A stretch of 64,000 nt of DNA from Kalaharituber pfeilii (lineage: Eukaryota; Ascomycota; Pezizomycetes; Pezizales; Pezizaceae), in NCBI GenBank assembly GCA_015179045.1, contig WHUZ01000010.1, positions 1 to 64,000 on the forward strand. Direction: 5' to 3'. Positions 9,586-63,075 of the stretch are shown here, piece after piece. The notes under the pieces are model-generated. The model made no database searches and had not been told where the DNA came from. It was given only the letters and a program-made list of their open reading frames with translations. The translations under genes were made by a program, and so were the position numbers. The first letter of the stretch is position 1. Each line of letters opens with the position of its first letter.

Positions 9586-10422
9586 TGTGATGAACGGGTC
9601 CGGGTCAACGTACAAGATCTGGGTACGGGGTGGCCGGCGGGCACTGAGGCCATGTCACAGTGGAGGCGGAGGCAGAGGCGGTCGGAGCTATATGATATCG
9701 AGAGGTAGATGTATTAAAAGCTAAATACACAACTTGGGTAGGATACAAGTTGTTGCATGGAGAAGCAAGAGGGATTTTTTTTTTTTTTTTTTTTTTTCAT
9801 TACTCGCATGCCGCCCTATGGGCTATGGCGAGGAAGCAAGAGGGAGGAGGGAGGAGGGCCTCTCTATAGAAAACCTTCGGTGGAAAATCCAGGCAAACTA
9901 GCAAACACGCAAACAAACGAAGAACATGGAAAACCGAGAAGCAACTAGAAGTACATGGAAAACAAAGGAAACGACAGGAAGTACATGGATGGCCACGGAA
10001 ATGACTGGAACCAGGTAGAAGCGTCAAGAATATCCGGGAATAAGCTCGGCGCTACCTGTTTCCAGCAGCTTCTATGGCTTTCCAAAAGGTTCTATAGCTT
10101 CCGGCAGGTTCTACGGCTTTCCGCCGGGTTCTGCGGCTTTCCGCCGGGTTCTGGGGATCCGGGTTCTTCTAGCAGGTTCTGGCAGGTTCTTCGGCTTCGG
10201 CCTGTTAACCGATGACCGGGATGCTGGCGGTCATGTCGCTTAAGCGTGCTCACAGGTGCAGAGATATATATCGGAGTGCTAGACGGAGTGCGGCGAATTG
10301 CAATGGTGTCAGGGTCAGCTGCACGACGCACGTGTACGAGTACTGGCGAGTCGTATGTTGGTTGCCAGTATAGGACCGGAGCTGGAGGGTCTTGGGCGAG
10401 GGGTCCGGGTTGGATTGTTACA
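9586..10422. mobile_element. LTR, reverse copy of the 7224-8008 element
   Basis: It reads TGTGATGAACGGGTCCGGG at the left and GGTTGGATTGTTACA at the right, the reverse complement of the TGTAACAATCC family. A micro-insertion of LINE family A (9775-9833) interrupts it. Five-base flanks (AATGG, GTAAT) do not match, so insertion by itself is not proven. It lies between two related blocks (8739-9370 and 10427-10880). Confidence 0.75.
9775..9833 (-). mobile_element. LINE family A micro-insertion
   Basis: A T-run then CATTACTCGCATGCCGCCC and CTATGGCGAGG, flanked by AAGCAAGAGGGA on both sides (9763-9774 and 9834-9845). Only the hairpin 3' end and poly(A) were inserted, on the minus strand. Confidence 0.88.
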
Positions 10423-10426
10423 GTAA

Positions 10427-10888
10427 TGCAACGTGTGCTTTAATGAATGGCCGAATACAGGTCCCAAAGTGTAGCCTGATGTGCGGCCCAATGCATAGCT
10501 CAATTCAACAAAAACTGCCTCCCTCTGCTGGTCCTCCACGCCGAACAGCTGCCCTTCCGGTCTACCATATATACATCCCCGTAGCCATTCCGGCTTTTAG
10601 CATATGTACCTCTGTAACTATTCTGGCCTATAGCATCTATACCTCCGTGCCCATTCCGGCCTGCAGATACACCTCCGTAGCCATTCCAGCCCACAGCATA
10701 TCCACCTCCATAGCCATTCCGGCCCACAGCATCTACACCTCCGTTGCCATTCCAGCCTGCAGCATATACACCTCTGTGGCCATTCTAGCCCGCAGTATAC
10801 ATACCGCCGTAGCGACTTCGGCCCGTCGTATATACATCTTCATGGCCATTACTAATTCCGCCTCCCAGTATATGCACCTCCGTAGCAA
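10427..10888. repeat. Second 33-bp minisatellite with its flank
   Basis: The flank (AATGGCCGAATACAGG...) matches 8750-8870 and is followed by about ten 33-bp units as in 8870-9370. It is a direct-repeat partner of that block. Confidence 0.8.
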
Positions 10889-12150
10889 TTTCGCCTCCAC
10901 ATCGACTGGGAGATGAGGTTTAATGACCATTTCAACCGGAGGCTACATGTCAGGGTCTACCCGCGAAGGGGATATCCACCCGCACTGGCCTGTAAAGCTG
11001 CGATTGACAATTCGGTCTGATCAACCGATAGCTACAGTCTGGCAGTGAAACACGGGTAGGGCACGGATGTGTATCACAAGGAACGTCGGCATGGTCAGAG
11101 CGTAGCGACAGCCACCGGACGGACCTCTAGGAGCAAAGCCACCGAATGGACCTCCAGGAGCAGAGCCACTGAACAGACCTCCAGGAGCAGAGCCACCGGA
11201 TGGACCTCTAGATGAGGCGAGGCAGTGGCTGAGGGATGCCTATAGATAGAGCATCGTGATATCATAGCATAGAGAGACAATAGAAGGAAGGCATGCCGGA
11301 TTGACTATAAGAAGGGCCAGCTAGAGCTGCCCTGTCGAAAGGTCAAGCACCAAGCGTTGTCCTAATTTACACCCTCATATTTACTACATTATCGTAGAAA
11401 CCGTAACACTACACCTAGGAAAAGCGGCATGGAGGATAGCAGCCAGACCGAAAGGGCTACCGCCAGCCAGACGGAGACAGTTATATACAGGAATTGCAAG
11501 GAATATTGCGACCTGGGGGTGCTGGGCGTGGGTGGAGTACGCGAAAGGAGCATCTCCAGAAGGTAAAATCAGATCGTTGGAGAGGTGGCAATACGTCATG
11601 GCAAGAGAAATAACGGGGGCCCCGTGGGGGACGAGACGGGACGTGGTAGAAGGACCAACAAACCTGGAGTCCGTCGAGACGTTTGTTTATGGGGAGGCAG
11701 AGAGGGTAGAGGCCCGGACACTGAGGTTCGGTGATGAACCAGTCAGAAGACCACAGCCGGACACGATATACCTAAGAGGGGCCCTTGGACACAGAGACTC
11801 CCTGCCTCTACATGTGCACCCAATACACCCGTCCAATCTTTGTAAGGAGGAGTGGGAGAGACTGATAGCTGGGGAGGAAGAAGAAGGATGGATGAGTGTG
11901 TACACTGATGGGAGCAGAATGGAGGACAAGACAGGCGCCGGAGTGCATCAAGCCGGAAAAGACACATCCATATACCTAGGGGAAAGATGCACAGTCAATG
12001 ACGCCGAACTGTTAGCGGTGGGAGAGGCCATGCGCAGAGAGGGGGAGCTGCTAATCGTAACGGACTCCAGGACCACGGTGACAAGGATGAAGGGGATAGC
12101 CAGGGGAGACCTGACCCCAGGAGGAGCAGAGGAGTGGGTACGGAGACAAC
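10888..12150 (+). pseudogene. LINE ORF2 relic: RT C-terminal part and RNase H
   Basis: Reading resumes around an inserted solo LTR. Before it: IDWEMRFNDHFNRRL (10888-10945). After it: KAAWRIAARPKGLPPARRRQ, IARNIATWGCWAW and ERWQYVMAREITGAP. The RNase H part starts with SVYTDGSRMEDKTGAGVH (about 11890-11950) and continues through VNDAELLAVGEA and VTDSRTTVTRM, which hold the D-E-D pattern. It stops in a 70-bp minisatellite near 12150, so the RNase H end, zinc-knuckle and 3' tail are missing. The frame 11532-12323 is open, but the element is truncated at both ends. It belongs to the same family as 36985-39485. Confidence 0.8.
10948..11408. mobile_element. Solo LTR inserted in LINE coding sequence
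   Basis: A 461-bp element, TGTCAGGGTCTACCCG...AACCGTAACA, with perfect 5-bp duplication CTACA (10943-10947 and 11409-11413). The related LINE at 38.37 kb shows the uninterrupted site (GGAGGCTATACCTAGG). It contains a 27-bp minisatellite (about 11109-11215, AGAGCCACCGGATGGACCTC). The same LTR family lies at 45829-46235. Confidence 0.88.
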
Positions 12151-12400
12151 ACCAGTGGCAGGATTACTTGCATTATGGACAAATGGAGTACATTTTGAGC
12201 ACGTTAAGTACGTTGCGGCGCCAGCAGCAGGATTACTTGCGTTGTGGGTGCAATGGGGACATTTTGAGCGCGTTGAGCACGTCGCGACGCGGGCAGCAGG
12301 ATTACTTGCCTTGTGGGCGCTGAGGGCGTAAGCTACCTTTTGTGATACGATAGGCGTGCCAAGCCAGAGAGTCAGGAAGCCAGAAATGCATCGTGTGTCG
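12150..12400. repeat. 70-bp minisatellite, three units
   Basis: CAGGATTACTTGC...TTTTGAGCACG units repeat three times (12155-12325). In reverse orientation the same unit plus flank is at 61270-61370 (AAGTGATCCTGCTGCCGCCG), so this is one end of a shared satellite island. Confidence 0.65.
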
Positions 12401-12465
12401 TGACGCTTGCTGCCTCGTTGTGACGCTGCTGATGCAACCTCTTTTTTGCTGATGAAGTAGCACCT

Positions 12466-12512
12466 ATGCCAAGAAACCATGGAGCGACTATAGCTCCATG
12501 GTTTCTTGGCAT
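12466..12512. repeat. Perfect 20-bp inverted repeat, 7-nt loop
   Basis: Left arm ATGCCAAGAAACCATGGAGC (12466-12485), loop GACTATA, and an exact reverse complement at 12493-12512. No T-run follows and no neighbouring gene explains it. Confidence 0.9.
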
Positions 12513-12515
12513 GAT

Positions 12516-16198: not shown

Positions 16199-16242
16199 AG
16201 GGCGGCATGCGAGTAATGATATTAAAAAAAAAAAAAAAAAAA
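16199..16242 (+). mobile_element. 44-bp LINE family A micro-insertion
   Basis: AGGGCGGCATGCGAGTAATG then ATATT and poly(A), flanked by exact ATACCTGTCAAAT (16186-16198 and 16243-16255). The 5' truncation lies inside the hairpin. Confidence 0.92.
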
Positions 16243-18446: not shown

Positions 18447-18610
18447 TTTTTTTTTTTTTTATTTCATTACTCGCGTGCCGCCCTGTGGGCTATGGCGAGG
18501 TATATAAGAGCTAACTACCTAACTAAATGAATGTCTGAGTCACAAAAAAAAAAACTCAAATGCATGGTGTCGAGCCTGCCTAATTCCTTTTCCTGTTGGG
18601 CTCGTACACC
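18447..18610 (-). mobile_element. Half-LINE 3' end (ORF1 tip plus family A tail)
   Basis: Flanked by AATTACATACAAT (18434-18446 and 18611-18623). On the minus strand it starts with the last codons of an ORF1 (YEPNRKRN, stop), then a 3' UTR with an internal T-run, then the CTCGCC...GCGAG hairpin and poly(A). The insertion lies upstream of the aegerolysin gene. Confidence 0.85.
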
Positions 18611-23404: not shown

Positions 23405-26200
23405 TGATGGTGTTCATCAAGAAGGGACCAGGTGTAACACTGGCTTGCTTGCTGACTAATACACTAAAAATACCTGGCCCCTGCGTTCTGACCCCTCTTT
23501 TGCAATTTCTCTTTCACAATTCAGCACCGCCGCACACAGAGAATCTCTACAGCAAAACTGCTTTTTGACATCGGATAACTTGAGTTAGGCTCCTGAGAGT
23601 AAGTATACGCTGATCTATAGCACCGTTTAGCTTTAAAAAAAATACAAATACTAATGTAGTGATAGGTAAAATGGGCCGTCTGAGCAGGAAAAGAAAAGCT
23701 TGCTTGCTTGCTTCTCAAGCTGCTGCCAGCAAGGCGAAAAGAAGAGCAGTTATGTATGGAGTGGAAGTAAATACTGTCGAGCCGGTTACAGCAGAGATGC
23801 ATGTGGATATCTCCGGACCGCTTGTATATAGCGAGAGTGAAGACTCTTTAGTGGATGAGTCTGAGTGGGAATTAGAGGAGGAGCAGGAGGAACAACATGA
23901 GCAGGATATTCAGGACTTGAGTATGGCGGTGGATGTTTATAATGAGCTGATGAAGAATACAATGAATGTAGACTTCTCCACTATTAAGTTCAAATATCAG
24001 TGTGGAGTTCAGGTGTCTCGCCAGACAGTATGGCGGCATAAAAAAGCTCAACAAGATTTACGAAACTCAGCTACCGGATGTCGACCGTTGACAGCTTACT
24101 TCACTCCTACTCCATTAAATTCCGAGTCAGAGGCAGCACCAAGTCTAACAGCTAATGATCCTCTACTCAAGCCGAAGTCTGAGGAGGAAATGAGAGTGGA
24201 GGCAATTTTAGCAGGAATTAAGGTACTACAAAAGAAGTTGAAAAGTAAAAAAGAGATGGTTACTGGGCAAAATTATCAGCGTCACCTAGCAGTTCTACAT
24301 TTTCTACAACTTCAGTTACACCGGCCTCATGAAACTCGTTCTTCGCTGTCACTACTGACAGCTAATTCTTTTAACCGGGGGATAAAAATGGCGAAGCATC
24401 TCAGACAATGGGAGCGCAGTTGGCTTACTAGCCAGTCTATTCCTGAGGGTTTCCAAGGTTTGCGGAGTTCTCGATTTTCATGGTTAAATGATGAAGGAGT
24501 TCAACTTGCTGTTCGAGAATACATTGCTGGTGTTGGTGAGGGTCTTACTGCCTATGGACTAGCAAAAGCAGTTACGGAATATCTGAAGCTTATTGGTGAA
24601 GAGGAGGATGATGGAATAGAGTTTGAGGATATCCTTTCAGGTGTAGCTGCAAAATCTCGGTCTATTAAAATATCTACTGCACGGCGATGGTTGCGCAAAT
24701 TAGGGTTCCGGTGGAGAGATGTGAAAAAGGGTGTTTATATTGATGGACATGAGCGAGAAGATGTTGTTCGATATCGTCAAGAGTACTTCCTGCCCCGCTT
24801 TTTCGAGCTATTACCTACTTGCATTAAATTCACCATTAAATCAGAAGAGGACAAAGAGCTGGAAGCAGAACATGAGCTGGAAGTAGAGAAGGAACCGGAA
24901 GCAGAGGATTCAGAAAAGAAAGAGAAGCTGGAAATTATTCCACAGGAACCTATACTACCATTAGGAGAAAAACTAAAGGTTCTTGTTACCCATGATGAGT
25001 CTACTTTTAATGCAAATGATGGACGACGGCAATTATGGATTCATGGGGAAAAACAGCCTTTACGACAAAAGTCTCGTGGGAAAGGAATTATGGTCTCCGA
25101 ATTTTTAACACCAGCAGGTCGACTCCAATATAATGGTACTTTTACGACTGAGTACTTAGAGTATGGAAAAGATAATTGCTGGTCAGGAGATAAAATGGTC
25201 GAACATGTTATTAAGGCGATTCCCATATTTGAAGCAGCATATCCAGGTAAACAAGCAATATTTCTTTTTGATAATGCTTCAAATCATGCTGCTTTTGCCG
25301 AAGATGCATTAGTAGTCTCACGGATGAATTTAAATCCCGGAGGTAAACAACCACGAATGCGGGATGGATTTATGCACAGCAAACAACGGCCTCAGCCTAT
25401 GGTTTTTCCTCATGATCATCCAAATCCAGAGTGGCGAAATCAACCAAAAGGAATTCGTGAAGTTCTAAAAGAACGTGGACTTTGGCGACAGGGTATGCGT
25501 CTAAATTGTCCAGATAAATGCCCTCCAAAAAGTCAAAACTGTTGTGCACGTCGCTGTTTAGGAATGGAGCGTGACTCTTTAGAACAAAAAGGAAGGTTAC
25601 AAGAAGAGATAGAAGCTCGTGGTCATTTAGTGTTATTTTATCCTCGTTTTCATTGTGAGTTAAATTTCATTGAATTTTTTTGGTCAGCAGCAAAAAAATA
25701 TACTCGCAATAATTGTGAGTATAATTTTGATGCTTTACGACGAACATTTCCTCAAGCTCTTAACTCTATTTGTGATCTTACTATTAATCGTTTTTTTTAT
25801 AAATGTTTACGTACAATGGAAGTTATCGAGATGGTTGTGTATATGGTACAAAGGAATTTACACAACGTGTATATAAGAGTCATAGAAGAGTTAAGTAGGT
25901 AGATCATTTCTATATATAGTAATTTTCATTCTGCACTAGTACTAATTCAGTAATTTTGGCTGTCTTGGGATGTAACTCGGTAGGGGCTTCCCATACAAAG
26001 TATTAAATTTTTGATCTTATATTTCTCAATACTACATTTTTATTTTTTAATTTGGACTCCGAAGGGTTGTAGAGCAGACGAAATAGTACATATCTACGGG
26101 TTTTAAATTTTAATCAGATGTGGTCAGGTAATGAAATATAATTTCTCGTTGAAGTCAATAATTTTGGTCGACAGGGGTCCCTTCTTGATGAACACCACCA
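23405..26200 (+). mobile_element. DDE transposon with 25-bp inverted ends and TA duplication
   Basis: The left end (23405-23429) starts TGATGGTGTTCATC and the right end (26176-26200) is its reverse complement with one mismatch over 25 bp. TA lies on both sides (23403-23404, 26201-26202), the Tc1/mariner-type duplication. The single long frame 23659-25902 encodes the transposase. The element is about 2.8 kb and looks complete. Confidence 0.9.
23659..25902 (+). CDS. DDE-superfamily transposase
   Basis: An intronless 747-residue protein. The N-terminus is basic (MGRLSRKRKACL; the second Met at codon 5 is an equally good start), followed by an acidic Glu-rich stretch (residues about 57-92). A helix-turn-helix-like region at about 290-370 (YGLAKAVTEYLKL, ISTARRWLRKLGFRW) probably binds the ends. 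The catalytic triad appears as D446 (VTHDEST), D538 (FLFDNASNH) and E672 (ELNFIEFFW), the last resembling the Tc1-type N-x-I-E-x-x-W motif. A Glu/Lys-rich insert sits before D446 and a Cys-rich insert (CPDKCPPKSQNCCARRC) between the second D and the E. I recall similar transposases from many fungal genomes. With inverted ends and TA flanks, this copy may still be active or recently was. Confidence 0.9.
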   Translation: MIGKMGRLSRKRKACLLASQAAASKAKRRAVMYGVEVNTVEPVTAEMHVDISGPLVYSESEDSLVDESEWELEEEQEEQHEQDIQDLSMAVDVYNELMKNTMNVDFSTIKFKYQCGVQVSRQTVWRHKKAQQDLRNSATGCRPLTAYFTPTPLNSESEAAPSLTANDPLLKPKSEEEMRVEAILAGIKVLQKKLKSKKEMVTGQNYQRHLAVLHFLQLQLHRPHETRSSLSLLTANSFNRGIKMAKHLRQWERSWLTSQSIPEGFQGLRSSRFSWLNDEGVQLAVREYIAGVGEGLTAYGLAKAVTEYLKLIGEEEDDGIEFEDILSGVAAKSRSIKISTARRWLRKLGFRWRDVKKGVYIDGHEREDVVRYRQEYFLPRFFELLPTCIKFTIKSEEDKELEAEHELEVEKEPEAEDSEKKEKLEIIPQEPILPLGEKLKVLVTHDESTFNANDGRRQLWIHGEKQPLRQKSRGKGIMVSEFLTPAGRLQYNGTFTTEYLEYGKDNCWSGDKMVEHVIKAIPIFEAAYPGKQAIFLFDNASNHAAFAEDALVVSRMNLNPGGKQPRMRDGFMHSKQRPQPMVFPHDHPNPEWRNQPKGIREVLKERGLWRQGMRLNCPDKCPPKSQNCCARRCLGMERDSLEQKGRLQEEIEARGHLVLFYPRFHCELNFIEFFWSAAKKYTRNNCEYNFDALRRTFPQALNSICDLTINRFFYKCLRTMEVIEMVVYMVQRNLHNVYIRVIEELSR

Positions 26201-26381: not shown

Positions 26382-27650
26382 TTATTCCAAACTCGTAGTA
26401 TAATACCTGTATTTCGGCAGAGAATTTGATTTGAAATGAGGTTTCTGGCTCTGGCTGTAATTTGTAGTCACCATAGTGCCTGGCCCACCCAATCTTTGAA
26501 ACTGAGCGCTGTCTGTTCCTTCTGTTGAACCAAGCCAGGTATTGTCATGGATAGCTTGCATTTCTTTTTCCATAGCTATCTTTTTGGCTTCCAGTATTGC
26601 CTGTCTTTGTTGAGCTGGGCTTTGGAGTGTACAACTTTCTGGTATTCTTCCTTCCAGTGTACTTATTCTTTCAATTATTCCTTGCATTGCTATCTCAATG
26701 CTTTTCTTCACAATATCCGTGAGCTCTTCTAGTGTCATTGTTTACAGTATATCGATTGGCTTTTGCGGTTGGTCAAGAGGTTGGTCAAGTGTCGTTTGTC
26801 CTAAGATTTCCGGAGCTTTTCATAGTTGTAAGGCCTCTGATATAATGTTTTCGAAACCCAATGGCCAGTTCTACGGCAGCAGATTTGTCAGGCCAAGTCC
26901 CTTTTGCTGCCTGTTGGCCGAGTCTTGAGGTTGCATAGGGGTTAAGGATCTTACCATCAGGTCCTGTATTGTATCAGTTTCACTTCCCTAAGTCAATTAT
27001 AAAGGGACTGGTGCCTCAGGGAATGCAAGCCTTTATGGAATCTAGGGAGCAACAGTCATGTCTAGAAATGATACAAACTCTGGGGAGGACAGCGATGATG
27101 TAGATGATCTTCTAGACTGGTCCAGAACCTGGTAGGCAGTACTTGTTTCTGGAGATGGTATATCCTTTGGGGAGGTTTGTGGTGATAAGGAGGTTTGTGG
27201 TAACTGGAACATAGGTTCGTCCTGGTTAGTATAAGCCTGTCTCCAGGCTTCGAGGGCTTGCCCAGGGACCCTGCCATGGCTTGGCGCTATAAGCGGGGTT
27301 ATGTGATTTTTTTAAAAAAAAAAAAAAAAAAAAAAGTGCTGGTTAGTATCTATCCAAGTAAGTAGTCGCTGTCGAAACTCTGTCTTTGCTTAAGAGACTA
27401 CAGCTTTGTTCGGGATATTCCTGAGTTCTCTCTGGGAGAGTATTTCCCTTCGAGTCCTTACAGGAGTCGACTCCAGTGCAAGCTGGGCTTGATATATGTC
27501 TTCCTCGTCGTCACTAGTTAACGCCCCCCTTTCCTGTAGGTTGATAATAAAGGCTGCGGCCAGCAGCAGTTTCCTTAGGATAGTGTCTGACTTCTTTTCA
27601 GTGGCTGACTCCAGTATACAGTTAGTTCACTGCGAGTTTGAATCCTGTTC
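26382..27650 (-). pseudogene. Probable retrotransposon gag-like relic
   Basis: The minus strand carries an open 118-codon segment (26382-26738: MTLEELTDIVKKSIEIAMQG, helical and Gln-rich). Upstream of it lie in-frame pieces (LAAAFIINLQERGALTSDDE near 27550-27490, LESTPVRTRREILSQRELRN). The charged, repeat-free composition resembles a gag or capsid-like protein but I see no zinc knuckle. Stops occur between the pieces, and a family B tail is inserted at 27233-27338. Identification is tentative. Confidence 0.35.
27233..27338 (+). mobile_element. LINE family B micro-insertion (106 bp)
   Basis: Starts AAGCCTGTCTCCAGGCTT (a small hairpin), then GGGACCCTGCCATGG...AAGCGGGGTTATGTGATT and poly(A). 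Flanked by exact CTGGTTAGTAT (27222-27232 and 27339-27349). Confidence 0.9.
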
Positions 27651-41112: not shown

Positions 41113-41165
41113 CGCCATAGCCCCCAGGGCGGCACGCGAGTAATGATATAAAAAAAAAAAAAAAA
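41113..41165 (+). mobile_element. LINE family A micro-insertion (53 bp)
   Basis: CGCCATAGCCCCCAGGGCGG...CGCGAGTAATGATAT plus poly(A), flanked by exact ATGGACAAGCACT (41100-41112 and 41166-41178). Opposite orientation to its neighbour, whose right duplication lies 14 bp before this insertion. Confidence 0.92.
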
Positions 41166-44521: not shown

Positions 44522-44552
<31 letters not shown>

Positions 44553-45314
44553 TCATTACTCGCTTGCCGCCCTAAGGGCTATGGCGAGGTTAAGTTAGAT
44601 ACACGATGAGATATTCTGTCCATTGGATAACTGATCGATGCCCATGGGTTTTACCAGCAGGTGTATGTTATTTCCCTATTAGACTACTTACGTGTTGATT
44701 TTGTTTTATTTATTTATTTTTTTTTTTGGAGTCACAAAATCGCATATACAGGCTACCAGCCTATAGCAGGGACTTGCGTTCTGTACCTAACGCACAGTCA
44801 GTGCTCCCAACGGGCCAGGCAGGCCAGGCCACGGGTACGGCCTGGGCCAGCCTGGACCGTAAAAATCTAGGCCCGGGCCTGGCCTGATCTTTCAGGCCGG
44901 TGATGAAGTCGGCCTGGACCGATCTAGGCAGCCTGAATGTTTCAGGCCAGGCGACGCCATTCAGGCCAGTCCAGAACAAAGAGCGAAATAATATAGCTAT
45001 GCACATGAGAGAATAATAGGTGGTGACATAAATATATGCAGTATGTGAAACAACAATAGGCAGCGAAAAAATACATCAGAACAGAATGAGAGGTGGTGCA
45101 ATAAATAGCATTCACGCAATGTGTGAACTCAATCTGAAAGAATCATAGATCGAGAAATAAACACACGCAGAAAGAATGATAGGTGGGCGAAATATAGACA
45201 CGCAGCAAGAATTATAGGTGGTGAAGTGAATAGACGGACATGTGACTGCAGTCCATGCACTATATTTGTCGGGGTTTGTTTACTAAAAAATTATACCTAC
45301 ATGGTCTGGACCGC
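44165..45314. other. Repeat debris downstream of the HET gene
   Basis: Includes the micro-insertion at 44522; a family B tail in minus orientation at about 44718-44775 (GGAGTCACAAAATCGCATAT); GGCCAGGCCTGGGCC-type repeats at 44805-44965 like those of the foldback MITE; and a degenerate tandem of about 45 bp (AATGATAGGTGGTGAAATAA) at 45000-45240. Confidence 0.55.
44522..44619 (-). mobile_element. LINE family A insertion (98 bp)
   Basis: T-run, ATATATCATTACTCGCTTGC, GGGCTATGGCGAGGTTAAG, then 30 bp of 3' UTR. Flanked by exact CCATTGGATAACTGA (44507-44521 and 44620-44634). Confidence 0.92.
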
Positions 45315-45767: not shown

Positions 45768-46238
45768 CTTTTTTTTTTTTTTTTAATTTCACGTGACCCG
45801 CGCGCAGCTGTTCGCCATTGCAGGGCACTGTCACGGGCCTACCCAGAGAGGCTGGGGATGTCGACCTGAGTTGACCCATAAGGCTGCTAGTGACCATTCG
45901 GCCTGGTCAACCGACAGCTACAGCAGGGCAATACAATTAACAGGGAGGGTCACGGAAGCGTATCACAAGCGGAGCGCATGGTTGAGTGAGTTGCGCCACT
46001 GAGTGGCAAGAGTACGCGTAGTCTTGTTGTGCACAGCCTCAGACATTGTTATTGATTGTTAAGCATTGATATCGATTGTTAAGCATAGATAGCATAAGCA
46101 ATAGAACATACAGTGGGCATGCGCGGGGAGCTGGCTATATAAGGAGGGCCTTCTGCCTTCGAGAGATGGTCAAGCTTCAAGCGTTGTCCTAAGTTACACC
46201 CTCATTTTAGCTACATCATCGTAGACTCCGTAACAGGC
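45768..46238 (-). mobile_element. LINE family B micro-insertion, itself split by a solo LTR
   Basis: T-run, AATTTCACGTGACCCGCGCG, TTCGCCATTGCAGGGCAC, then the LTR. The flanks ACCCGTTGTG (45758-45767 and 46239-46248) are its target duplication. Without the LTR it would be about 65 bp. Confidence 0.88.
45829..46235. mobile_element. Solo LTR inside a family B tail
   Basis: 407 bp, TGTCACGGGCCTACCC...ACTCCGTAACA, with perfect duplication GGCAC (45824-45828 and 46236-46240). Same family as 10948-11408, sharing CAAGCGTTGTCCTAA and TTACACCCTCAT near the right end. A GGCTATATAAGGAGG stretch may be its TATA region if read in the plus direction. Confidence 0.9.
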
Positions 46239-46349
46239 ACCCGTTGTGATTCGCCTCACACGAATGTGTGTATTGATTCCAAGTTTGCCAGTCCCTGGAC
46301 GATGTCTCTCTTGTACCCCAGGGGGACTTGGTAATGCTCTGGGCTACCC

Positions 46350-46402
46350 CCTCGCCATAGCTCCTAGGGCAGCATGCGAGCGATGAAACAAAAAAAAAAA
46401 AA
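46350..46402 (+). mobile_element. LINE family A micro-insertion (53 bp)
   Basis: CCTCGCCATAGCTCCTAGGG...ATGCGAGCGATGAAAC plus poly(A), flanked by exact TCTGGGCTACCC (46338-46349 and 46403-46414). It interrupts the RT relic. Confidence 0.92.
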
Positions 46403-46590
46403 TCTGGGCTACCCGGTATTGCCATTTCTCCAGCTTCGCTAGCTTGTGCTCCGGAGGTGCGGATCTTGCGTGATCCATACAGGCCCAGCACCCCCACGTG
46501 ACGATCAGCCTGGCAATGCTTGTATATAATTGCCGCCGTTTTGCCGGGTCCAGGTGTCCCAACCTTGCTGCCGTCGCCCACGCTGCGTGG

Positions 46591-47267
46591 CCTCTTGTTA
46601 AAGTGTGTTGTGAATTTATGGTAGGATGTGGGAGTTAGATTCGGTAGGCGCCTACCGCTACGCAGATGATCAGAACGAGAACACAGAATACACCAACAGA
46701 GAACATAGGCTCAAACTGGTTCTGCTCTTGGTATTGGTGCGAACTGGTCTGCCTGAACTGTCCTGAATAGCCTAAATGGCCTGAATCGGCCTGCATGTTT
46801 CGGGCAGGTCCAGGCCCTCAACAGCCCCGCTGGTATCAGCCGGTTTCAGGCCTGGCCGATTGGGAACACTGGGAGCAGGGAGAAAGAGCCAGAATCTTCT
46901 CGCATGATCAACAATTGGAACTGTCGGCGAAGGTTGCAAGTTCGAACTTTGTGACGGGCGAGTTACTCTTTTGCCCATTCCTGTTGCTGACTCTACGTAG
47001 AATTCGCAGCCTTCAACTAAGTTCAAGCAAGTTAGTAATAAAGTCACGCTAGGTTATTCTACTATAAAATATACTCAACTCAACTATGCCTACTTTCTTT
47101 CTACTAATCAATTCAAGAATATAACACATAAGTACGCAAGAAATATGTCCTGTACTCAAACTTCCAATTCGGTCCCCAATCCTGTTTGTAAAGACAAGCA
47201 AGACAGTTCCAATCTGCTACTTGAACGTACGAAATTCTTTAGATACATGTGAGCTACAAATATTTCG
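46591..47267. other. Gene-free stretch with GGCCTGAAT repeats
   Basis: 46740-46870 holds GCCTGAATCGGCCTGCATG-type repeats like the foldback MITE interior. The rest leads to the 3' end of the minus-strand kinase-like gene. Confidence 0.45.
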
Positions 47268-48626
47268 TCACGGCACTATTCCCCTACCCTCCCACTCCTC
47301 TATAGCTTTCTCAGCCTTGGTCATCACCCACCTCCAATTGCCCCACACGCCCCAGCCACCCATGAACCTGGCCCAATCCACCAGGGCCCACTTTAGCTGT
47401 TCCTCAAAAACCTCCCTCGTCCATCCGTTATCTTGCTTCCCAATCCGCCTCAATATGTCGTTCACAGCCTCGAAGTAGAACTGCTTCAGCTCTTCTTCGT
47501 GCTGCGCCATCAATCTCGCAGAGATGGTAGTCCCCAGAAAGTATGCCAGATCTATGACTCCTAGTCCGTGCCCAACGTACTGAAAGTCATATATGGCAGC
47601 GGTCACAAGCTCGCCTGCAGGACCCGGCTTCCCAGGAGCGTGCGAGAATAAAATGTTTGCTCCCTTCGTGTCGCCATGAACGATAGTCCTCCCGATCCAG
47701 GACGTGGCCCATGTGGGATCTCCTGTCGTTCCAGCAGCTGGCCAGAGTTTTTTATCTACCCATGACCCCCAGCGCCCAAGTGAGGGATGCTCTCCGCTGC
47801 TTATCAAATCCTGCATTTCAGCCCCGCGAGTCGCAAGATACCAGTATCCACCGTGCTGCCATACTCCATGCTCGGTACCTGCTGCACAAGTCGGAGGCGG
47901 AACACTGGCTACATTCTCACCCCAGAACGTCGCATGCATACCTGCCAGCCACTTCAACACTGCAGTTGCGTGTTTCATTCCCGAAATGCTCCCTCCGCAG
48001 GGATACTGAAACCCCGCAGCATTCAGGTCCTCAATCGCTAGCACCGTAGGCACCATGGCACTGGAATCGTCGTTCTTTGGTTCGAGCACAAACTCGTTGT
48101 ATACCCTCGCGACCTTCGACTTGCCCTCCAACCTAGAGGCCAAATGGATATAGAACCACTGCTCAACATGATACGAGATCACCTTCCTGACGTGACCCTC
48201 ATCTTCTTCATCACTGGATGGAGGGGAGATAATTTTCAGGACGATGGACAGAGGCTCAGAATCATCATGTTTCTTAATAACAAGACGGTAGATGGAACCA
48301 TAACCAGCCCACAGCGTAGTGAGATGGTATTGCGAGAGGACCTTGACGTCTGAGAGAAGATTGGTGACAGGAATGCTGCCAAAAGGTACACGACGCATGT
48401 AGAGCAGGCACAGGCGAAGCGCGTAGGAAATGGTTGGACTCAATAAGTGGTCAGAGGCTGTTGTGCACTCGGGGTCAAACTTTCGATACCTTGTTATTCG
48501 ACGAAGCTGCAAGTGCTGTTGAAACCTGGAGGTTTGGGTGGGGTGACTTGGCAGACCGCTAGTCCTGTAGGTATTTAGCTTTTCCTTGGCTCTGTCCTGC
48601 TCCAGCACGTGAGGGAAGGTACGCAA
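47268..48626 (-). CDS. APH/ecdysteroid-kinase-like phosphotransferase
   Basis: A 452-residue frame. The core (from about residue 105) has the fold signs of the aminoglycoside-phosphotransferase/EcKinase group: a glycine-containing start (LWAGYGSIYRLVI), VLKIISPP as the ATP-binding Lys strand, VEQWFYIHLA, a hinge-like LAIEDLNAAGF, a catalytic loop HGDTKGANILF (H317, D319, N324) and a metal-binding DFQ (D347 in YDFQYVGHGLGVIDLAYFLG). All key residues are present, so it is likely active; the small-molecule substrate is unknown. The first 75 residues look unlike the family, so the true start may be MRRVPFGS (ATG at 48398) or lie after an unseen intron. It stands alone, on the opposite strand from the HET gene. 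Confidence 0.85.
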   Translation of the reverse strand: MRTFPHVLEQDRAKEKLNTYRTSGLPSHPTQTSRFQQHLQLRRITRYRKFDPECTTASDHLLSPTISYALRLCLLYMRRVPFGSIPVTNLLSDVKVLSQYHLTTLWAGYGSIYRLVIKKHDDSEPLSIVLKIISPPSSDEEDEGHVRKVISYHVEQWFYIHLASRLEGKSKVARVYNEFVLEPKNDDSSAMVPTVLAIEDLNAAGFQYPCGGSISGMKHATAVLKWLAGMHATFWGENVASVPPPTCAAGTEHGVWQHGGYWYLATRGAEMQDLISSGEHPSLGRWGSWVDKKLWPAAGTTGDPTWATSWIGRTIVHGDTKGANILFSHAPGKPGPAGELVTAAIYDFQYVGHGLGVIDLAYFLGTTISARLMAQHEEELKQFYFEAVNDILRRIGKQDNGWTREVFEEQLKWALVDWARFMGGWGVWGNWRWVMTKAEKAIEEWEGRGIVP

Positions 48627-49663
48627 TGGAATCTACCGCCCAGAAAAACCCCGTCCAGATTCAAATCTGGCAGACCCCCCCTCTGCCGGATTCCATATGC
48701 ACAGAAATTTTTCACAGATGAACAAAAGGGGTTAGGTAACGTAGAATTAAAACTGCATACCTTGTAATTTGCATATCTAAACCTCAATACAAGGCCGAAA
48801 ATAGTCTGGGCATGAGAACACAAAATCAAATATGTCCCCCCCCTTTTTGGGTCTTCAAATTATGCGACAACGATGAAAGCAATTTTATTTCTGAAGCAGT
48901 GCTAAAAAGTGGTAGTTGGGTGAGCGATAGGTGTAGATAATTTTGCACGCAATAATTTCTGCATAAAGTACTTGCCTTTGTAATAGCGCTGGCGCGTGAT
49001 GTGCTGACAAATTTGAGAATCTGGGAATCTGGGATTTTGATTTTACAGAATCTGGTCTAGGAAGCTGGGTCTGTGAATCTGCGCCTCCGGGAAGTCATCC
49101 ACTAGCGCATAATTAGTCAGTGGTTCCAATAATTACTAAACGAGCAAGTACATGTAGGTACATCGTTTTCTTTTTATTTTTCAAAAAAAATAACATTGAC
49201 GATAGAAATTTAGTCCAGGATTTTTCCTACAACACCTTCAGTTTCTGTAAGATATAATACAGACTAAGTGAGGTAAGCAGCCTAATACTACATAATGGTA
49301 TTGGTATTTTAGGAGCTAAAGTCTTTATCTGGAAACCAACTATTACTAAGAAACTGATGAAATCTCGATCTACATTTATACGGTACTAGGTTTGAACTGA
49401 TTTTCGGGAAGCTGCTTGAAGCACAAACCAAATTCAGCGGCGCTTCATCCATTGCCGTCATATGCAGATCTTTCCCGATCGAATGACAGATCAACAGGTC
49501 AGTTGCATTGCAAGATGGCGCCGTGCATGCCCCAAGCTTAACTACACTTATAAAAGGGCGTGTGTTGGGCCCTGCGCTACATTTCTTTCTGCTTCACAAA
49601 AGTGAATCCCGTAGCTACCGACAGTTTACCTTTGGCTTTTTCACTCCTCTGCTATTGTGCAAC
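48627..49663. other. Gene-free stretch, shared upstream region
   Basis: Lies between two divergent genes. Small GAATCTGGGAATCTGGG repeats at 49015-49085. Nothing else recognised. 49540-49663 is the likely promoter of the secreted-protein gene, with a CTTATAAAAGGG TATA-like box at 49550. Confidence 0.45.
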
Positions 49664-50613: not shown

Positions 50614-50665
50614 CCTCGCCATACCTCATAGGGCGGCATGCGAGTACTGATGTAAAAAAAAAAAA
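50614..50665 (+). mobile_element. LINE family A micro-insertion (52 bp)
   Basis: CCTCGCCATACCTCATAGGG...ATGCGAGTACTGATGT plus poly(A), flanked by exact AACTAACCCTCGT (50601-50613 and 50666-50678). Confidence 0.93.
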
Positions 50666-51066: not shown

Positions 51067-51131
51067 TTTTTTTTTTTATTTTTTTTTTTTATATCAATAC
51101 TCGCATGCCGCCCTACGGGCTATGGCGACAG
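51067..51131 (-). mobile_element. LINE family A micro-insertion (65 bp)
   Basis: T-rich tail, ATATCAATACTCGCATGCCG, ACGGGCTATGGCGACAG, flanked by CAATAGCTT (51058-51066 and 51132-51140). Confidence 0.85.
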
Positions 51132-51546: not shown

Positions 51547-51653
51547 CGTCGTCCCTTCCAGCTGTTTGACCTGCCAATCTCGCATTTCTCCCACTACCAC
51601 TTGGGTTGGTGTTTCAATCGCTTTCTTGGCCTTATTTTTGGGTGGTGCCCTCG

Positions 51654-51750
51654 TTGTTTTTTTTTTTTATATCTGTACTCGCATGCCATGCCCTCGGTTT
51701 TTTCTTTTTTTTAATATCATTTATCGCATGCCGGCCTAAGGGCTATGGCG
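51654..51750 (-). mobile_element. Two family A micro-insertions at the same site
   Basis: The outer tail (51654-51688, T-run plus TACTCGCATGCCA) and the inner one (51697-51750, T-run, TTATCGCATGCCGGCC, TATGGCG) are separated and flanked by three copies of TGCCCTCG (51646, 51689, 51752). So a second insertion used the duplication of the first. Confidence 0.85.
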
Positions 51751-51766
51751 ATGCCCTCGTGTGACC

Positions 51767-52104: not shown

Positions 52105-52166
52105 TTTTTTTTATTTTTTTTTATTTCATTACTCGCGTACCGCCTTATAGACTATGGCGAGGTTTA
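52105..52166 (-). mobile_element. LINE family A micro-insertion (62 bp)
   Basis: Interrupted T-run, ATTTCATTACTCGCGTACCG, TAGACTATGGCGAGGTTTA, flanked by GGGTTGGTTA and GGGTTAGTTA (52095-52104 and 52167-52176). Confidence 0.88.
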
Positions 52167-54574: not shown

Positions 54575-56341
54575 TAGAAGTGCCATCGTATGTTGACGAC
54601 CTGGCAGCAACGATCCTAGACTGGCACGGGTACTGGGATATGGGGCGGCTCAAGGAGAAGGTGAAGGTGGCGATGGCGGAGGTGGCGGAGGAAGACCAGA
54701 TCCCGCTGGAGGAGTCGAAGTGGGAGATGATAACCTTCGGGGTGGGAAGGAGGTGGAAGAAAGAGGGGAGATGCTAAAGTGGTTAGGGGTCATCTTCGAT
54801 GAGAACTTGACCTTTGGCGCACATTGGCGAAACAGGCTGAGCCGAGCGCGGAGGCTGGCGGGGGCTCTCTCGGGACTGGGCAACCGGAACTGGGGATGTC
54901 TCCACGCAGCTGGAGGCAAGCCTACACGGGGATGGTGAGGGCGGTTGCAATGTGGGGAAGCGAGATCGGGTGGAGGGGACAGAAGGAATGGAGGAAGGAG
55001 ATGGAGAGAGTCCAGCTGCAGGTGTTGAAGAAGGCGGCTGGAGGAGGGAGAGGAGCGGGGGTAGGAGGGGTGAGTGCGGTGTGTGGAGTGGAGGACGTGG
55101 AGACGGTCCTGGATGGCGCGCAAGCGAGGGCGATCGTCCGGGAGGTGGAGGCGCCGTCAGAGCTGGCGGAGCTTTGCACGGGCGACTTCGGAGGGAGTGA
55201 GGAGAGAGAGGAGGAGGCGAGAAACTGGAGAGACTGGGGGGTGCAGTGGGCGGTGGCCGAGAATGAGGGGTATGAAGCAGTGCTGGACCGCTGGCAAGGT
55301 CAGTGGGCGAGGTTCTCGGAGGAGGGGGAGGAGATCTCGTGGGGAGGGGGGTGTAAGAAGGTGGAGGTGGAAGTGGTGGAGAGGCGGAAAGGAGAAGTGG
55401 AGACGAGGGGGGAGTGGGAAGCCGCGATCGGGGAAGCCGGAAGAAAAAGGGCAGTCCTTTTCTCCGACGGCAGCAAGATCGAGGACAGCAAGGTGGGAGC
55501 AGGGGTGTGGGGGAGGTCGGCAGCCGTGGCGGAGGTGGTGGGGAGAACGGCGACGGTGTTCGATGGGGAGGTGAGGGGAGTGAGAAAGGCGCTGGAGAGT
55601 GTGGAGGAGGAGGTCCCTGTACTGATCTGTTTAGATTCTGAGGCTGCCGTCATGGCGATCCAGAAGGCAGGCAGGGAGGGAAAGGGGAAAACCGAGGATG
55701 TGAGGAGAGTGGTGGATGCCGTAGCGAGGAGGAAGAAGAAGGGAGGGGATGCGAAGCTGATGTGGGTCAAGGCTCACATCGGAATCGCAGGAAATGAGAA
55801 GGCGGATGAGTGGGCGAAGAAGGGGACGGTGATGCAGGGGAAGGAGGTGGCCACCGGAAGTGGGGTGCGCCAGAGGGTGAAGGCGTGGAGGAAGGAGAAG
55901 AGAGAAGTGGACGGCTTTGGAGGAGGAAAGGTCATGGAGTGGAATAGGATAGCAGTATCCAATTTCACTGCCTTGCGCCTGGAGAGAGGGAGGTGTGCGG
56001 TGTGGTTGAAGAGGATAGGGGCAGCTGAGTCGGATAAGTGCAGGTGCGGGGAGGTGCAAACCGGGGAGCACCTCGCTTTCCGATGCAGAAACCAGAAGAA
56101 CCGTCCAGAAGGCTTTGAGAGGTGGGGCGACATGGAAAAGAACTGGAAGAGAAAGGCGGAGAATGGGGAGGAGTATGACGTTTTGGAGAATTTCTTCGCT
56201 GGGGTCAAGTTCTAGAAGCTAGGAGAGCGGGGGCGACGGCGCGTGGGGGCCATGTACGTAGAGAGTTAGTTTAGCCTGTCTCCGGGCTATGAGGGCTTGC
56301 CCAGGGACCCTGCCATGGCCAAGTGCTACAAGCGGGGTTAT

Positions 56342-56373
<32 letters not shown>
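54575..56373 (+). mobile_element. LINE of family B, 5'-truncated
   Basis: Starts within RT, just before SYVDDLAATILDWHGYWDMG (the YVDD catalytic motif at about 54586-54597). It continues through ORF2 to 56215 with one frameshift near 54770. The 3' end is GCCTGTCTCCGGGCTATG, then GGACCCTGCCATGG...AAGCGGGGTTATGTG and poly(A) to 56373. It shows that the family B hairpin is this LINE's 3' end. A matching upstream duplication was not found. Confidence 0.85.
54824..56215 (+). CDS. LINE ORF2 C-terminal half: RT thumb, RNase H, Cys/His motif
   Basis: 463 open codons. Residues 1-45 are out-of-frame read-in; the LINE sequence in the preceding frame reads WLGVIFDENLTFGAHWRNRL. RT thumb-like region WRQAYTGMVRAVAMWGSEIG. 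RNase H at about 205-340: VLFSDGSKIEDSKVGAGVWG, DGEVRGVRKALE, LICLDSEAAVMAIQKAG and WVKAHIGIAGNEKADEWAKK, which carry the D, E, D and final D positions. The C-terminal CRCGEVQTGEHLAFRC is a Cys/His motif, ending near VLENFFAGVKF. The whole piece is high in G and A. It is open and may be young, but without the RT N-terminus and ORF1 it cannot act alone. A relative fragment lies at 5710-5985. Confidence 0.75.
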   Translation: MAKQAEPSAEAGGGSLGTGQPELGMSPRSWRQAYTGMVRAVAMWGSEIGWRGQKEWRKEMERVQLQVLKKAAGGGRGAGVGGVSAVCGVEDVETVLDGAQARAIVREVEAPSELAELCTGDFGGSEEREEEARNWRDWGVQWAVAENEGYEAVLDRWQGQWARFSEEGEEISWGGGCKKVEVEVVERRKGEVETRGEWEAAIGEAGRKRAVLFSDGSKIEDSKVGAGVWGRSAAVAEVVGRTATVFDGEVRGVRKALESVEEEVPVLICLDSEAAVMAIQKAGREGKGKTEDVRRVVDAVARRKKKGGDAKLMWVKAHIGIAGNEKADEWAKKGTVMQGKEVATGSGVRQRVKAWRKEKREVDGFGGGKVMEWNRIAVSNFTALRLERGRCAVWLKRIGAAESDKCRCGEVQTGEHLAFRCRNQKNRPEGFERWGDMEKNWKRKAENGEEYDVLENFFAGVKF

Positions 56374-57687: not shown

Positions 57688-57860
57688 AGGAAGTAGACAG
57701 GTTTTTTCGGGGTTCCCGGCTACCCGCACCACGAAGGACAAGCGGGAAATACATGTATTTAGTGTTTAGTTAGTCCTTTTCTTTCTTTAAATATACACCT
57801 CGCCATAGCCCACAGGGCGGCATGCGAGTAATGAAATTAAAAAAAAAAAAATAAAAATAA
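57688..57860 (+). mobile_element. LINE family A insertion (173 bp)
   Basis: Starts AGGAAGTAGACAGG, then a 3' UTR and the CCTCGCCATAGCCCACAGGG hairpin, ending in poly(A) with interspersed T. Flanked by exact AAATTCAGCTCATT (57674-57687 and 57861-57874). Confidence 0.9.
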
Positions 57861-58263: not shown

Positions 58264-58521
58264 TTTTTTTTTTTTTTTTTTTATTTCATTACTCGCATGC
58301 CGCCCTGTGGGCTATGGCGAGGTATATATTAAAGGAAAAGAAAAGAGTAACACACTAACTACATTAACTACATGTGATTCCCGAGGTATTCAAAGTGATT
58401 CGGGTGGGGTGAGGAGATGCATCGAGCCTACTTCTTCCCTCTGTCCTGCTCGTACGTCTCCGAACGCAACCATCTTCCTCCAAGCCTGACCTTCCCAGCC
58501 TCCCTCTGTGTCTTTAGGAAC
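58264..58521 (-). mobile_element. Half-LINE 3' end (ORF1 tip plus family A tail)
   Basis: Minus strand: ORF1 end VRLGGRWLRSETYEQDRGKK and stop, then a 3' UTR (ACATGTAGTTAATGTAGTTA), hairpin and poly(A). Flanks TCAGCTCATT (58254-58263 and 58522-58531). Confidence 0.88.
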
Positions 58522-61139: not shown

Positions 61140-61860
61140 TACAAAAGTGCGTGGCCATTGCGCTACTACCATTGCACTACGATGTCCGCACCCTACACAT
61201 TTCTGGCCTTACGACTTTGGCACCTCGCCTTATGCCTTTACCACATTCGCGCCCCATAAAATCAGTTTTCTGCCTTGGTGCGCCCATGGCATTACAAAAG
61301 GTAGTTTACGCTCTCAGCACTCATAATGCAACTTAAGTGATCCTGCTGCCGCCGTCGCAACGTGCTCAATGTGCTCAACATGCTCAATGTGCCCAATGTG
61401 TCCTACATCTCATGTGCGCACACTCAACATGCTCAATGTGCCCAATGTGCCGAATGTGCCCTACATCTCATATGCGCACACAACATACTCAACATGCTTA
61501 ATATGCTTAACATGCTCAATATGCTCAGCTCACTATACTCGCGTGCACTCAATATGTTCAATATCTCATACACGCACTGAGCCTGTTTGATGTACTGGAT
61601 ATGTACTTGTACAATATGCTCAATATTTCATATACGTGCTCAAGTGCCCAACATACTCAATGTGTTCTACAATTCCATATCTCATGTGTGCGCCCAGTAT
61701 GCCCAATAGCGTAAAGATGGTTTATCAACTCAATTGGGCAATATCGCAGCATGCCTGAACTGCCCTTGTTAGTACATTACGAAATTGAAATCAAGTTTAT
61801 GCTGTTGCAAAAGGGGTGGGGTGAGCTATATCCTAGCTCTTTTTTTTTTTTAATCTATCC
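61140..61860. repeat. Satellite island: 70-bp relic plus CTCAACATG array
   Basis: 61140-61370 is the reverse-oriented counterpart of 12155-12400. 61360-61690 is a short-period array (ATGCTCAATGTGCCCAATGT). 61700-61860 matches the flank at 3120-3300. So it joins three repeat types that also occur on the left side of the window. Confidence 0.65.
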
Positions 61861-61977
61861 CTTGAGCGGGCAAAACTTATATGATATGCTAAATTCGATA
61901 CACTAGTTTCACTACTTTTGGTCCTTGTCATGCCGATCAATCATATCAAATTTGCAATGACACATTTACTTGTGGGA
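61861..61977. other. Unrecognised spacer
   Basis: Short unique-looking sequence with a T-run at its left edge. Its right end provides the target site TTGCACTCGCCTA. Confidence 0.35.
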
Positions 61978-61990
61978 TTGCACTCGCCTA

Positions 61991-62435
61991 TTTTTTTATT
62001 TTTTTTTTTTATATATCATTACTCGCGTGCCGCCCTGGGGGCTATGGCGAGATTAGTTACATGAGATTAGATACATATGAAGGTAGAAGAAAAGGAATAA
62101 GAAAAGATCCTGTGTGTCTCCTATGCCCCTGCCCACTCCAAGATGTCTCTTAGTGGGTCTGTGTCCTTGCTCTTCGGAGGAGTGACCAAGTCTTGCATGC
62201 CTCCTGGCCACTTTCGTTTCCATGTCCTGCACCTAGTGAGCACATGTTCAGTAGTCTCCTCCTCCTCCCCACACCATCGACATTCTGGGCTGTCTGCTTT
62301 CCCGATTTCGTACTGCTATTTCCGTAGTAACTTGCCGCCCAGTATTCCTGCTAGTGTGGCTATGTGTCGACTTCCAAGTCTTGTCAAGGGACGGTAGCTG
62401 AGCCCTAGCCGGTTTCTCTCTGTGGCGCGCTGATG
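61991..62435 (-). mobile_element. LINE family A insertion with ORF2 C-terminus (445 bp)
   Basis: Exact flanks TTGCACTCGCCTA (61978-61990 and 62436-62448). Minus strand: LGSRHIATLAGILGG, GKADSPECRWCGEEEETTEH (zinc-knuckle-like Cys/His), TWKRKWPGGMQDLVTPPKSK, DILEWAGA stop (near 62123), then 3' UTR, CTCGCCATAGCCCCC hairpin and poly(A). Same end as the 36985-39485 LINE. Confidence 0.92.
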
Positions 62436-62448
62436 TTGCACTCGCCTA

Positions 62449-62927
62449 CTACGAGGCTGATGAGACTGTATAAGCTTATATTATATTGACTGCTAGGACT
62501 AACTACATGATCTAATAGTTATGCTGTTGTCATTCTGTGGAAATAGTAAAAACAATACTGGTTCCGACAAAGCAGTACACGACATATTGCACAAATTCAT
62601 TATAGTATTTAATATCTCACTACAAGCACATTGACCTTCCTTTCAAGTACTGTAATAAATAACTTCAAGAACGTTCTAGGACATTGAATAGATGCGCGCT
62701 GTTCCTGTGCCTGGGATGTATGCACTGGCCATTGCTTGAGGTCAGAAATTTGATACTAGTAGTAGAGTACACAGACCCTCTTGGCTGAACGCCACACAGT
62801 GAAACTAGTGCATCGAATTTAGCGAAGTTTTGCCCGCCCGAGAGATAGGTTGCCAAATTCAGTGCTGATAAGGTCGCTCAGGCCACTTCAGCTGTCCGCT
62901 GTGATCCCACGGGTCGGCTAGGATAGC
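62449..62927. other. Gene-free stretch
   Basis: AT-rich. Part of it (about 62820-62930) resembles the satellite flank GGTTGCCAAATTCAGTGCTG. No gene. Confidence 0.35.
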
Positions 62928-62939
62928 CTACAATAGCAA

Positions 62940-63075
62940 TTTTTTAATTTTTTTTTTTTTTATTTCATTACTCGCATGCCGCCCTACGGGCTATGGCGAG
63001 GGTCTTTATTAATGAAAGTAAAAGAAGTCAAAACGATCGCACCCACTAGCTACATGTGTTGCCCGCGGTAGTCCT
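62940..63075 (-). mobile_element. Half-LINE 3' UTR copy (family A, 136 bp)
   Basis: T-run, ATTTCATTACTCGCATGCCG, TACGGGCTATGGCGAGGGTC, then a 3' UTR ending ACTAGCTACATGTGTTGCCC as in 31041. Exact flanks CTACAATAGCAA (62928-62939 and 63076-63087). Confidence 0.92.

Follow-up and report, generated by a model that had tools for sequence, protein, structure and literature searches.

The stretch of DNA analyzed here, hereafter the window, comprises 64,000 nucleotides (nt) of the ascomycete Kalaharituber pfeilii (positions 1 to 64,000 of contig WHUZ01000010.1, GenBank assembly GCA_015179045.1). Scattered through it in both orientations are copies of a short hairpin sequence, termed tail 1, which forms the 3′ end of a long interspersed nuclear element (LINE) and is followed by a poly(A) run. 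An earlier reading made from the letters alone (the sequence-only reading) had counted more than twenty such copies, and 25 are found when up to five edits to a 22-mer of the tail are allowed. Under mismatch-tolerant scoring within 300 bp, 19 of the 25 are bounded by a target-site duplication (TSD), and 14 of those 19 hold at most 41 nt of element, where length is measured to the end of the motif and the 5′ edge of the hairpin falls at 38. Permuted flanks under the same scoring gave 12 hits in 241 at a score of at least 8 and 4 in 241 at a score of at least 9, none of them with 41 nt of element or less.

Many inserts consist of the bare hairpin with its A-run. On the forward strand, such hairpin-only inserts lie at 32440–32510 (40 nt; TSD 32429–32439/32511–32521), 40810–40867 (35 nt; TSD with one mismatch), 41113–41164 (36 nt; TSD 41099–41112/41165–41178), 46350–46402 (39 nt), and 50614–50665 (39 nt; TSD 50601–50613/50666–50678). 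On the reverse strand, they occupy 9775–9832 (38 nt plus poly(A); TSD 9762–9774/9833–9845), 41019–41085 (40 nt; TSD 41006–41018/41086–41098; also recovered by a scan blind to the motif), 51067–51131 (40 nt; 9-bp TSD), and 52105–52161 (38 nt; TSD with two mismatches). The insert at 46350–46402 sits within an old fragment of LINE open reading frame (ORF) 2 spanning 46238–46610, and the flanking LINE matches overlap by three residues, as a TSD would give by alignment-end arithmetic. Still shorter inserts are cut inside the hairpin at 16199–16241 (+; 23 nt plus poly(A); TSD 16185–16198/16242–16255), at the inner stem at 36822–36858 (+; 20 nt; TSD 36810–36821/36859–36870), and at 37665–37689 (−), the shortest, where 15 nt and an A-run are enclosed by TSD 37648–37664/37690–37706 (17 bp with one mismatch, 13 bp exact). 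Two adjoining inserts of 19 and 36 nt at 51661–51750 (−) have a weak TSD sequence in common; within 51646–51759, they carry different tail variants at what is apparently a nearly identical target site. Longer pieces complete the set: 69 nt at 44522–44619 (−; 15-bp TSD), 113 nt at 62940–63075 (−; 12-bp TSD), 149 nt at 18447–18610 (−; 13-bp TSD), another 149 nt, a piece of 3′ untranslated region (UTR), at 57688–57860 (+; 14-bp TSD), and 238 nt at 58264–58521 (−; 10-bp TSD).

All twelve duplication pairs listed in the sequence-only reading were recovered within about five bases, nine of them exactly. The pair 37649/37691 is exact over 13 bp and reaches 17 bp only with one mismatch, 40795/40868 carries one mismatch, and 52095/52167 is present with two mismatches but failed stricter scoring. 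The very short insert claimed at about 17 nt of element does exist, but carries 15. Two more degenerate repeats were observed in the window: a pair of tail-like copies in tandem at 3230–3400, with the repeated flank GGGGCTCCAGTTG...GCTTGGGCCACTC, and a repeat of the GAGCATATTGAGCATG type at 61460–61660.

The tail 1 hairpin is predicted to fold into a 5-bp outer stem, conserved internal loops (CATA/GGCAT), a 4-bp inner stem, and a 3-nt hypervariable loop. The analysis was limited to rows in which six or more of the first nine bases agreed with the 5′ strand of the hairpin (87 unique rows, compared with 92 in the folding analysis). In these, 752 of 783 cells are paired, while versions slid along the alignment reach at most 328 of 783. 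Pair 1–30 changes from C-G to A-T in 19 rows and pair 13–17 from C-G to T-A in 11; none of 500 shuffles attained either count. Such double changes argue for the hairpin by covariation, as for a LINE of the stringent type. Several tail 1 3′ UTRs bear AATAAA directly upstream of the hairpin (window hairpins ending at 62963 and 31055, both −), and folding of the hairpin could bring this poly(A) signal near the cleavage site.

In the 78-Mb genome (360 contigs), the source of all genome-wide counts given here, the exact tail 1 22-mer occurs 410 times and its reversed control not at all. A 312-kb sample was assembled by adding to the window 20 loci of 9.9 kb each and a further 75 of 672 bp, with positions taken from the first 100 exact matches in the list of 410 (L-numbers below denote sampled genomic loci outside the window). 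It contains 186 tails, each required to have an A-rich 3′ neighbor. TSDs scoring at least 10 within 450 bp, the limit of the search, flank 90 of the 186 tails versus 3 of 552 with permuted flanks. Comparison of flanks removed three of the 90 inserts as duplicated loci and none from the short class, leaving 87; on this basis, locus duplication was rejected as the source of the length spike described next. Chance TSDs are likewise ruled out by the permuted-flank controls for the window, this sample, and the second tail described below.

The lengths of these 87 inserts are sharply discontinuous. Ten fall at 15–31 nt, 36 at 35–41, none at 42–58, and the remaining 41 at 59–442, the last spread without a comparable spike. 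Against a smooth exponential null, admittedly crude, 35 inserts at 36–41 nt compare with 3.7 expected (binomial P ~4 × 10⁻²⁵), and the empty 42–58-nt class with 9.6. The anchoring of loci biases the sample, the exact motif being present in 98 of the 186 tails and in 49 of the 87 inserts, and copies with and without it were therefore also tallied separately: the 38 inserts lacking it divide into 10 at up to 31 nt, 18 at 35–41, none at 42–58, and 10 longer. An insert that retains fewer than roughly 15 nt of the tail escapes detection by motif. The sequence-only reading had predicted a sharp mode at the 5′ edge of the hairpin and had named a smooth length distribution as its refutation; the spike and the adjoining gap bear the prediction out. 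Its portrayal of the inserts as hairpin only does not apply to all of them: in the sample, 41 of 87 are longer LINE 3′ pieces.

Six of the ten 15–31-nt inserts end at 19–20 nt, where reverse transcriptase (RT) would enter the inner stem, and this class looks like RT drop-off. Extra bases 5′ of the hairpin occur in 21 tail 1 inserts and never exceed 3 nt; 19 of the 21 extensions correspond to the end of a LINE flank (c, cc, ac, acc, cac), the remaining two being t and ccc. Short and long inserts have in common a median TSD of 13 and a target preference of C, then A/T, A, and T. The equality of both features implies that one machinery probably makes the two classes.

A scan that made no use of the motif gave a congruent picture. 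It examined 305 A-rich runs in the 312 kb for flanking TSDs of at least 11 bp with any content between, and returned 85 TSD-flanked poly(A) inserts versus 4 in the control, with lengths again peaking at 35–45 nt. Tail 1 was detected in 73 of the 85. The other 12 comprise one tail 1 copy with a deletion, five copies of a different hairpin tail (tail 2), five inserts resembling other repeats, and one stub with only CACGTG (6 nt) before its A-run, possibly derived from tail 2. Among 241 pure A-runs, just two have 16 nt or less between TSD and A-run, one being the 15-nt tail 1 insert already described. Poly(A) alone seems insufficient for insertion, since 73 of the 85 TSD-flanked poly(A) inserts bear tail 1 and five bear tail 2; the scarcity of poly(A)-only inserts is, at the level of sequence, consistent with retroposition that needs a 3′ hairpin.

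Tail 2, CCCTGCCATGGC-GAACA-GCTACAAGCGGGG-TCACGTGAAA, thus came to light through the motif-free scan, having been missed by the sequence-only reading although it is present in the same window. Its hairpin-only inserts there lie at 30636–30699 (+; 46 nt by TSD, one mismatch) and 38313–38370 (+; 43 nt, TSD with one mismatch), and a 77-nt insert at 27233–27338 (+; 11-bp TSD) starts at a hairpin farther upstream in the LINE 3′ end. The second of these interrupts a LINE ORF2 in a manner that can be counted out: query residues 261–686 align up to 38300 and residues 689–727 from 38377, and the 76-nt gap in this alignment-end arithmetic equals an insert of 58, a TSD of 12, and two codons (6). Tail 2 folds similarly to tail 1: across its 40 unique rows, pairing holds in 426 of 440 cells, but the rows vary too little to yield more than one double change. 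Genome-wide, its 24-mer has 2,185 matches at up to 3 mismatches (control 0) and its 40-mer 1,007 at up to 2 (control 0), while 146 matches at up to 3 mismatches were found for a 50-mer extended into the flank of a single LINE-2 subfamily; that flank is exact in 10 of the first 100 exact 40-mers. These counts suggest about 1,000 genomic copies of the tail 2 unit, some 10–15% of them with the LINE flank.

For tail 2, 40 loci were fetched, all from the list of exact 24-mers, so that few subfamilies are represented. A match was obtained at 39 (L127 gave none): 32 are short TSD inserts, six have LINE-type flanks, and L111 is unassigned. Together with the loci of the tail 1 sample, the matches total 76, of which 46 have a TSD versus 1 of 376 in the control. 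The lengths of the 46 repeat the pattern of tail 1, with 39 at 39–46 nt (24 at exactly 42), none at 47–76, and five at 77–80; of the remaining two, one measures 243 nt and the other 102 nt; the target of the latter is locally repeated, so that its boundary may be wrongly placed. The five inserts of 77–80 nt begin with (T/A)AAGCC, AAGCC, or AGCC; these letters form the 5′ base of a hairpin, AAGCC...GGCTT, that is predicted there. Of the 39 short inserts, 38 have G at −1, which places the 5′ end within about 1 nt. At −2, the base is T in 22 of 39, where the LINE flank ends GGGG. Among nine inserts whose −2 base was not supplied by the target, T occurs six times, G twice, and C once, G being the base in the LINE flank. 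The excess of T is 22 of 39 versus 12 of 41 for the base before longer tail 1 inserts, an imperfect comparison (p = 0.023).

Both tails belong to LINEs that encode RT and RNase H, and autonomous-type elements with the same 3′ ends appear to exist in the genome for each. The two families have proteins about 32% identical (L144 vs. L023), and each ends in its own hairpin followed by poly(A). L023 contains a 1,095-residue endonuclease–RT–RNase H ORF2, with tail 1 ending 94 nt after the ORF, and, overlapping it on the upstream side, a frame of 853 residues or more that resembles ORF1. L145, with RT and RNase H, is 68% identical to the L023 protein and also ends in tail 1. L144 (RT, RNase H; read without its 5′ part) has tail 2 at its end, and its identity to the window ORF at 54803–56215 is 81%. 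This ORF is the RNase H part of a LINE-2 fragment on the forward strand (54803–56348), identified by ORF and domain matches and by its tail, in which the 3′ UTR leads to a tail 2 ending at 56348. A degraded LINE ORF2 of the L023 type, 55.6–60.3% identical in three pieces, runs from 36984 to 39466 (+), where its tail 1 ends, and is the frame interrupted by the tail 2 insert at 38313–38370. Known relatives of these LINEs are distant, the best-scoring match being 29% identical. With TSDs, poly(A), and parent LINEs of matching 3′ end, the inserts bear the hallmarks of target-primed reverse transcription (TPRT), as the sequence-only reading had held in attributing them to a LINE tail. Two distinct LINE families with two distinct tails thus exhibit the same insertion behavior.

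Some longer tail 1 elements seem to encode only an ORF1-like protein. Proline-rich ORFs of this kind precede tail 1 at L017:4133–5128 (−), L025:2395–3507 (−), L028:5555–6544 (+), and window 31191–31978 (−); the proteins end in ...RGRK or ...RGRR, and the tail ends about 155 nt after the ORF. Their conserved C-terminal domain looks RRM-like by eye, while Pfam returned no family at E 0.001 in the three proteins scanned. Homology to the L023 ORF1 was rejected, blastp giving only matches of E 0.04 or worse. HAL1-type elements are ORF1-only elements, and these tail 1 elements are possible HAL1-like ORF1-only partners of the LINE; the comparison applies to the longer relatives and not to the short inserts.

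What sets the common 5′ edge? With confidence no better than even, we favor short inserts that copy an RNA whose own 5′ end lies at the base of the hairpin, that is, a LINE RNA trimmed or cut from the 5′ side, with the hairpin serving as the recognition module of the RT. In such a scheme, RT would recognize the 3′ hairpin and poly(A) as the start signal for TPRT; trimming or cutting of the LINE RNA would proceed as far as the hairpin, which is folded and perhaps bound by RT; the protected stub of about 40 nt with poly(A) would remain a complete substrate; RT would run off its 5′ end; and joining of the cDNA to the target would leave a duplication, mostly of 10–15 bp. Exonuclease stalling, RNase P-like cutting, protection by RT, and a preference for dA in run-off are general background to these steps. 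A template ending at the hairpin is preferred because the boundaries lie at 5′ bases, extra bases match the flank and do not exceed 3 nt, and the tail 2 edge is precise and accompanied by T. In particular, each of the three main boundaries in the two families falls at the 5′ base of a hairpin, which fits an agent arriving from the 5′ end of the RNA; an RT obstructed by the fold should instead stop at its 3′ side. The near-single-nucleotide edge of tail 2, with frequent T beyond it, fits run-off with untemplated dA, or alternatively microhomology. We raise more tentatively the possibility that the hairpin RNA of about 42 nt, with a defined 5′ end and poly(A), is a discrete species. It would then be the smallest known retroposon, a short interspersed nuclear element (SINE) reduced to the RT recognition module and active in two LINE families of one fungus.

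Several observations weigh against a trimmed or cut template. Tail 1 ends are spread over 0–3 nt, less precise than expected of a single cleavage, and the 10 of 87 inserts that stop inside the hairpin indicate that RT drop-off occurs. Three hairpins in a row are predicted in the LINE-2 3′ end (L105; window 56270–56348), and inserts begin at the first and third while none of the 46 tail 2 inserts starts at the middle one. Bases beyond −1 that the target did not supply are confined to nine tail 2 inserts, and in tail 1 the T excess is not significant (16 of 36 vs. 12 of 41, p = 0.24). No TSD scoring 10 was found in range for 96 of the 186 tail 1 and 30 of the 76 tail 2 matches; longer copies, older copies, and chance are candidate reasons for the 96. 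Finally, an RT that lets go after copying the hairpin it holds gives an identical length distribution.

This last possibility, RT release, is the strongest competitor, although we regard it as somewhat unlikely. Here the template would be a full-length LINE RNA, and RT, having lost its contact with the hairpin in the course of copying it, would fall off just afterward, in the manner of abortive initiation. The drop-off seen inside the hairpin shows a kindred event, and a single boundary rule across many tail 1 variants with different flanks is naturally accommodated. The model must nevertheless have RT stop within 0–3 nt of the hairpin exit and then not at all for 17–30 nt, and neither the second boundary at the upstream LINE-2 hairpin (5 of 46) nor the T at tail 2 base −2 is easily explained by it.

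A dedicated source, either a gene for an RNA of about 42 nt or a precisely processed small RNA, would make the inserts a bodiless SINE, and this we consider doubtful. The excess of the tail 2 40-mer over the LINE-flanked 50-mer (1,007 vs. 146) speaks in its favor, as do the sharp tail 2 5′ end and a −2 base often unlike the LINE flank. Yet short tail 1 inserts carry several LINE tail variants and both stem types and so have no single source, and a promoter is not expected to fit in 42 nt. No longer, TG-flanked source copy occurs among the 39 anchored tail 2 matches (some of the 30 TSD-less matches do have TG), and Rfam holds nothing relevant. Of the three causes that the sequence-only reading had offered for the extreme truncation, two are compatible with these data: a template cut (or trimmed) at the hairpin, and a small RNA of its own; the third, very poor processivity, fails, for it predicts smooth decay, yet the 42–58-nt class is empty and longer copies reach at least 442 nt.

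Lower still in probability is a snap-back of the cDNA, in which the completed cDNA hairpin folds back and ends synthesis at the 5′ edge of the hairpin, aided by removal of the RNA by the LINE RNase H. The cDNA strand does fold, in the one tail 1 string typed, and the LINEs do carry RNase H; no inverted 5′ ends of self-primed origin, which such a mechanism would likely leave behind, were noticed in the listed junctions, albeit without a systematic search. Ordinary random 5′ truncation of LINEs, in a window rich in short copies, is very improbable despite the spike-free spread of the 59–442-nt pieces, and neither it nor poor processivity as the sole cause survives the length distributions, given the spike, the empty class beside it, and the repetition of the pattern with tail 2.

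Other sources were considered and set aside. The body of the short inserts is LINE tail only and copies no cellular mRNA, which excludes processed pseudogenes. Known ribozymes and Rfam RNAs were rejected as the source of the boundary: among seven Rfam matches up to E = 5 (L105, L113, L028, L023), a search that covers known families only, none is a ribozyme or otherwise relevant. The window also contains a 762-residue ORF with a DDE_3 transposase domain (23614–25902, +), a HET-domain-like protein just under the Pfam cut-off (42116–44164, +) whose closest match is from Kalaharituber pfeilii (58%), further matches including Tirmania and Terfezia, and an EcKL kinase-like protein (47268–48632, −).

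Nature has here apparently isolated a minimal LINE-insertable RNA, consisting of a hairpin of about 30 nt, a linker of about 8 nt, and poly(A). Whether LINE copies are truncated at the 5′ end through release of the RT or through decay of the template becomes testable, as the two differ in their predictions at one defined nucleotide. Such a minimal module may interest builders of RNA-templated insertion tools. Insertions of about 40 bp, likely on the order of a thousand in this genome, may also escape standard repeat finders.

The inserts represent a new form of stringent-tail LINE retroposition. Our literature search, whose coverage excluded most subscription journals, turned up nothing that describes inserts of the hairpin alone with a fixed edge. 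Like SINEs, these inserts are short, non-autonomous, TSD-flanked, and mobilized by LINEs. SINEs measure about 100 nt or more, whereas the unit here is about 40 nt, all of it hairpin tail, and has no tRNA, 5S, or 7SL head that could be found; no tRNA and no Rfam match at the gathering threshold occurs in the window, Pol III boxes not having been scanned separately. A second parallel is R2, for which Palm et al. describe a stable 5′ fold that helps insertion and some junction bases that are untemplated, and suggest that degradation of the template from its 5′ end may limit insertion, a stable 5′ fold barring 5′–3′ exonucleases (PMC11331408). The reading favored here resembles that account, in that 5′ degradation of the template with a fold as barrier would govern what is inserted and some junctions may include untemplated bases. 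R2, however, inserts at a specific site and owes its protection to a 5′ ribozyme fold, whereas in the present inserts the 5′ end would be marked by the very hairpin that serves for 3′ recognition. Closest are stringent-type LINEs and their SINEs, whose common 3′ stem-loop shows compensatory changes and is often followed by a repeat or poly(A), as in eel UnaL2, silkworm SART1, and the monocot L1/SINE pairs with tail-sharing SINEs (PMC3747384). The likeness to the pairs described there is the conserved 3′ stem-loop, a tail common to non-autonomous partners; the difference is that in K. pfeilii the tail by itself, with no SINE body, makes up numerous insertions that share a fixed 5′ edge.

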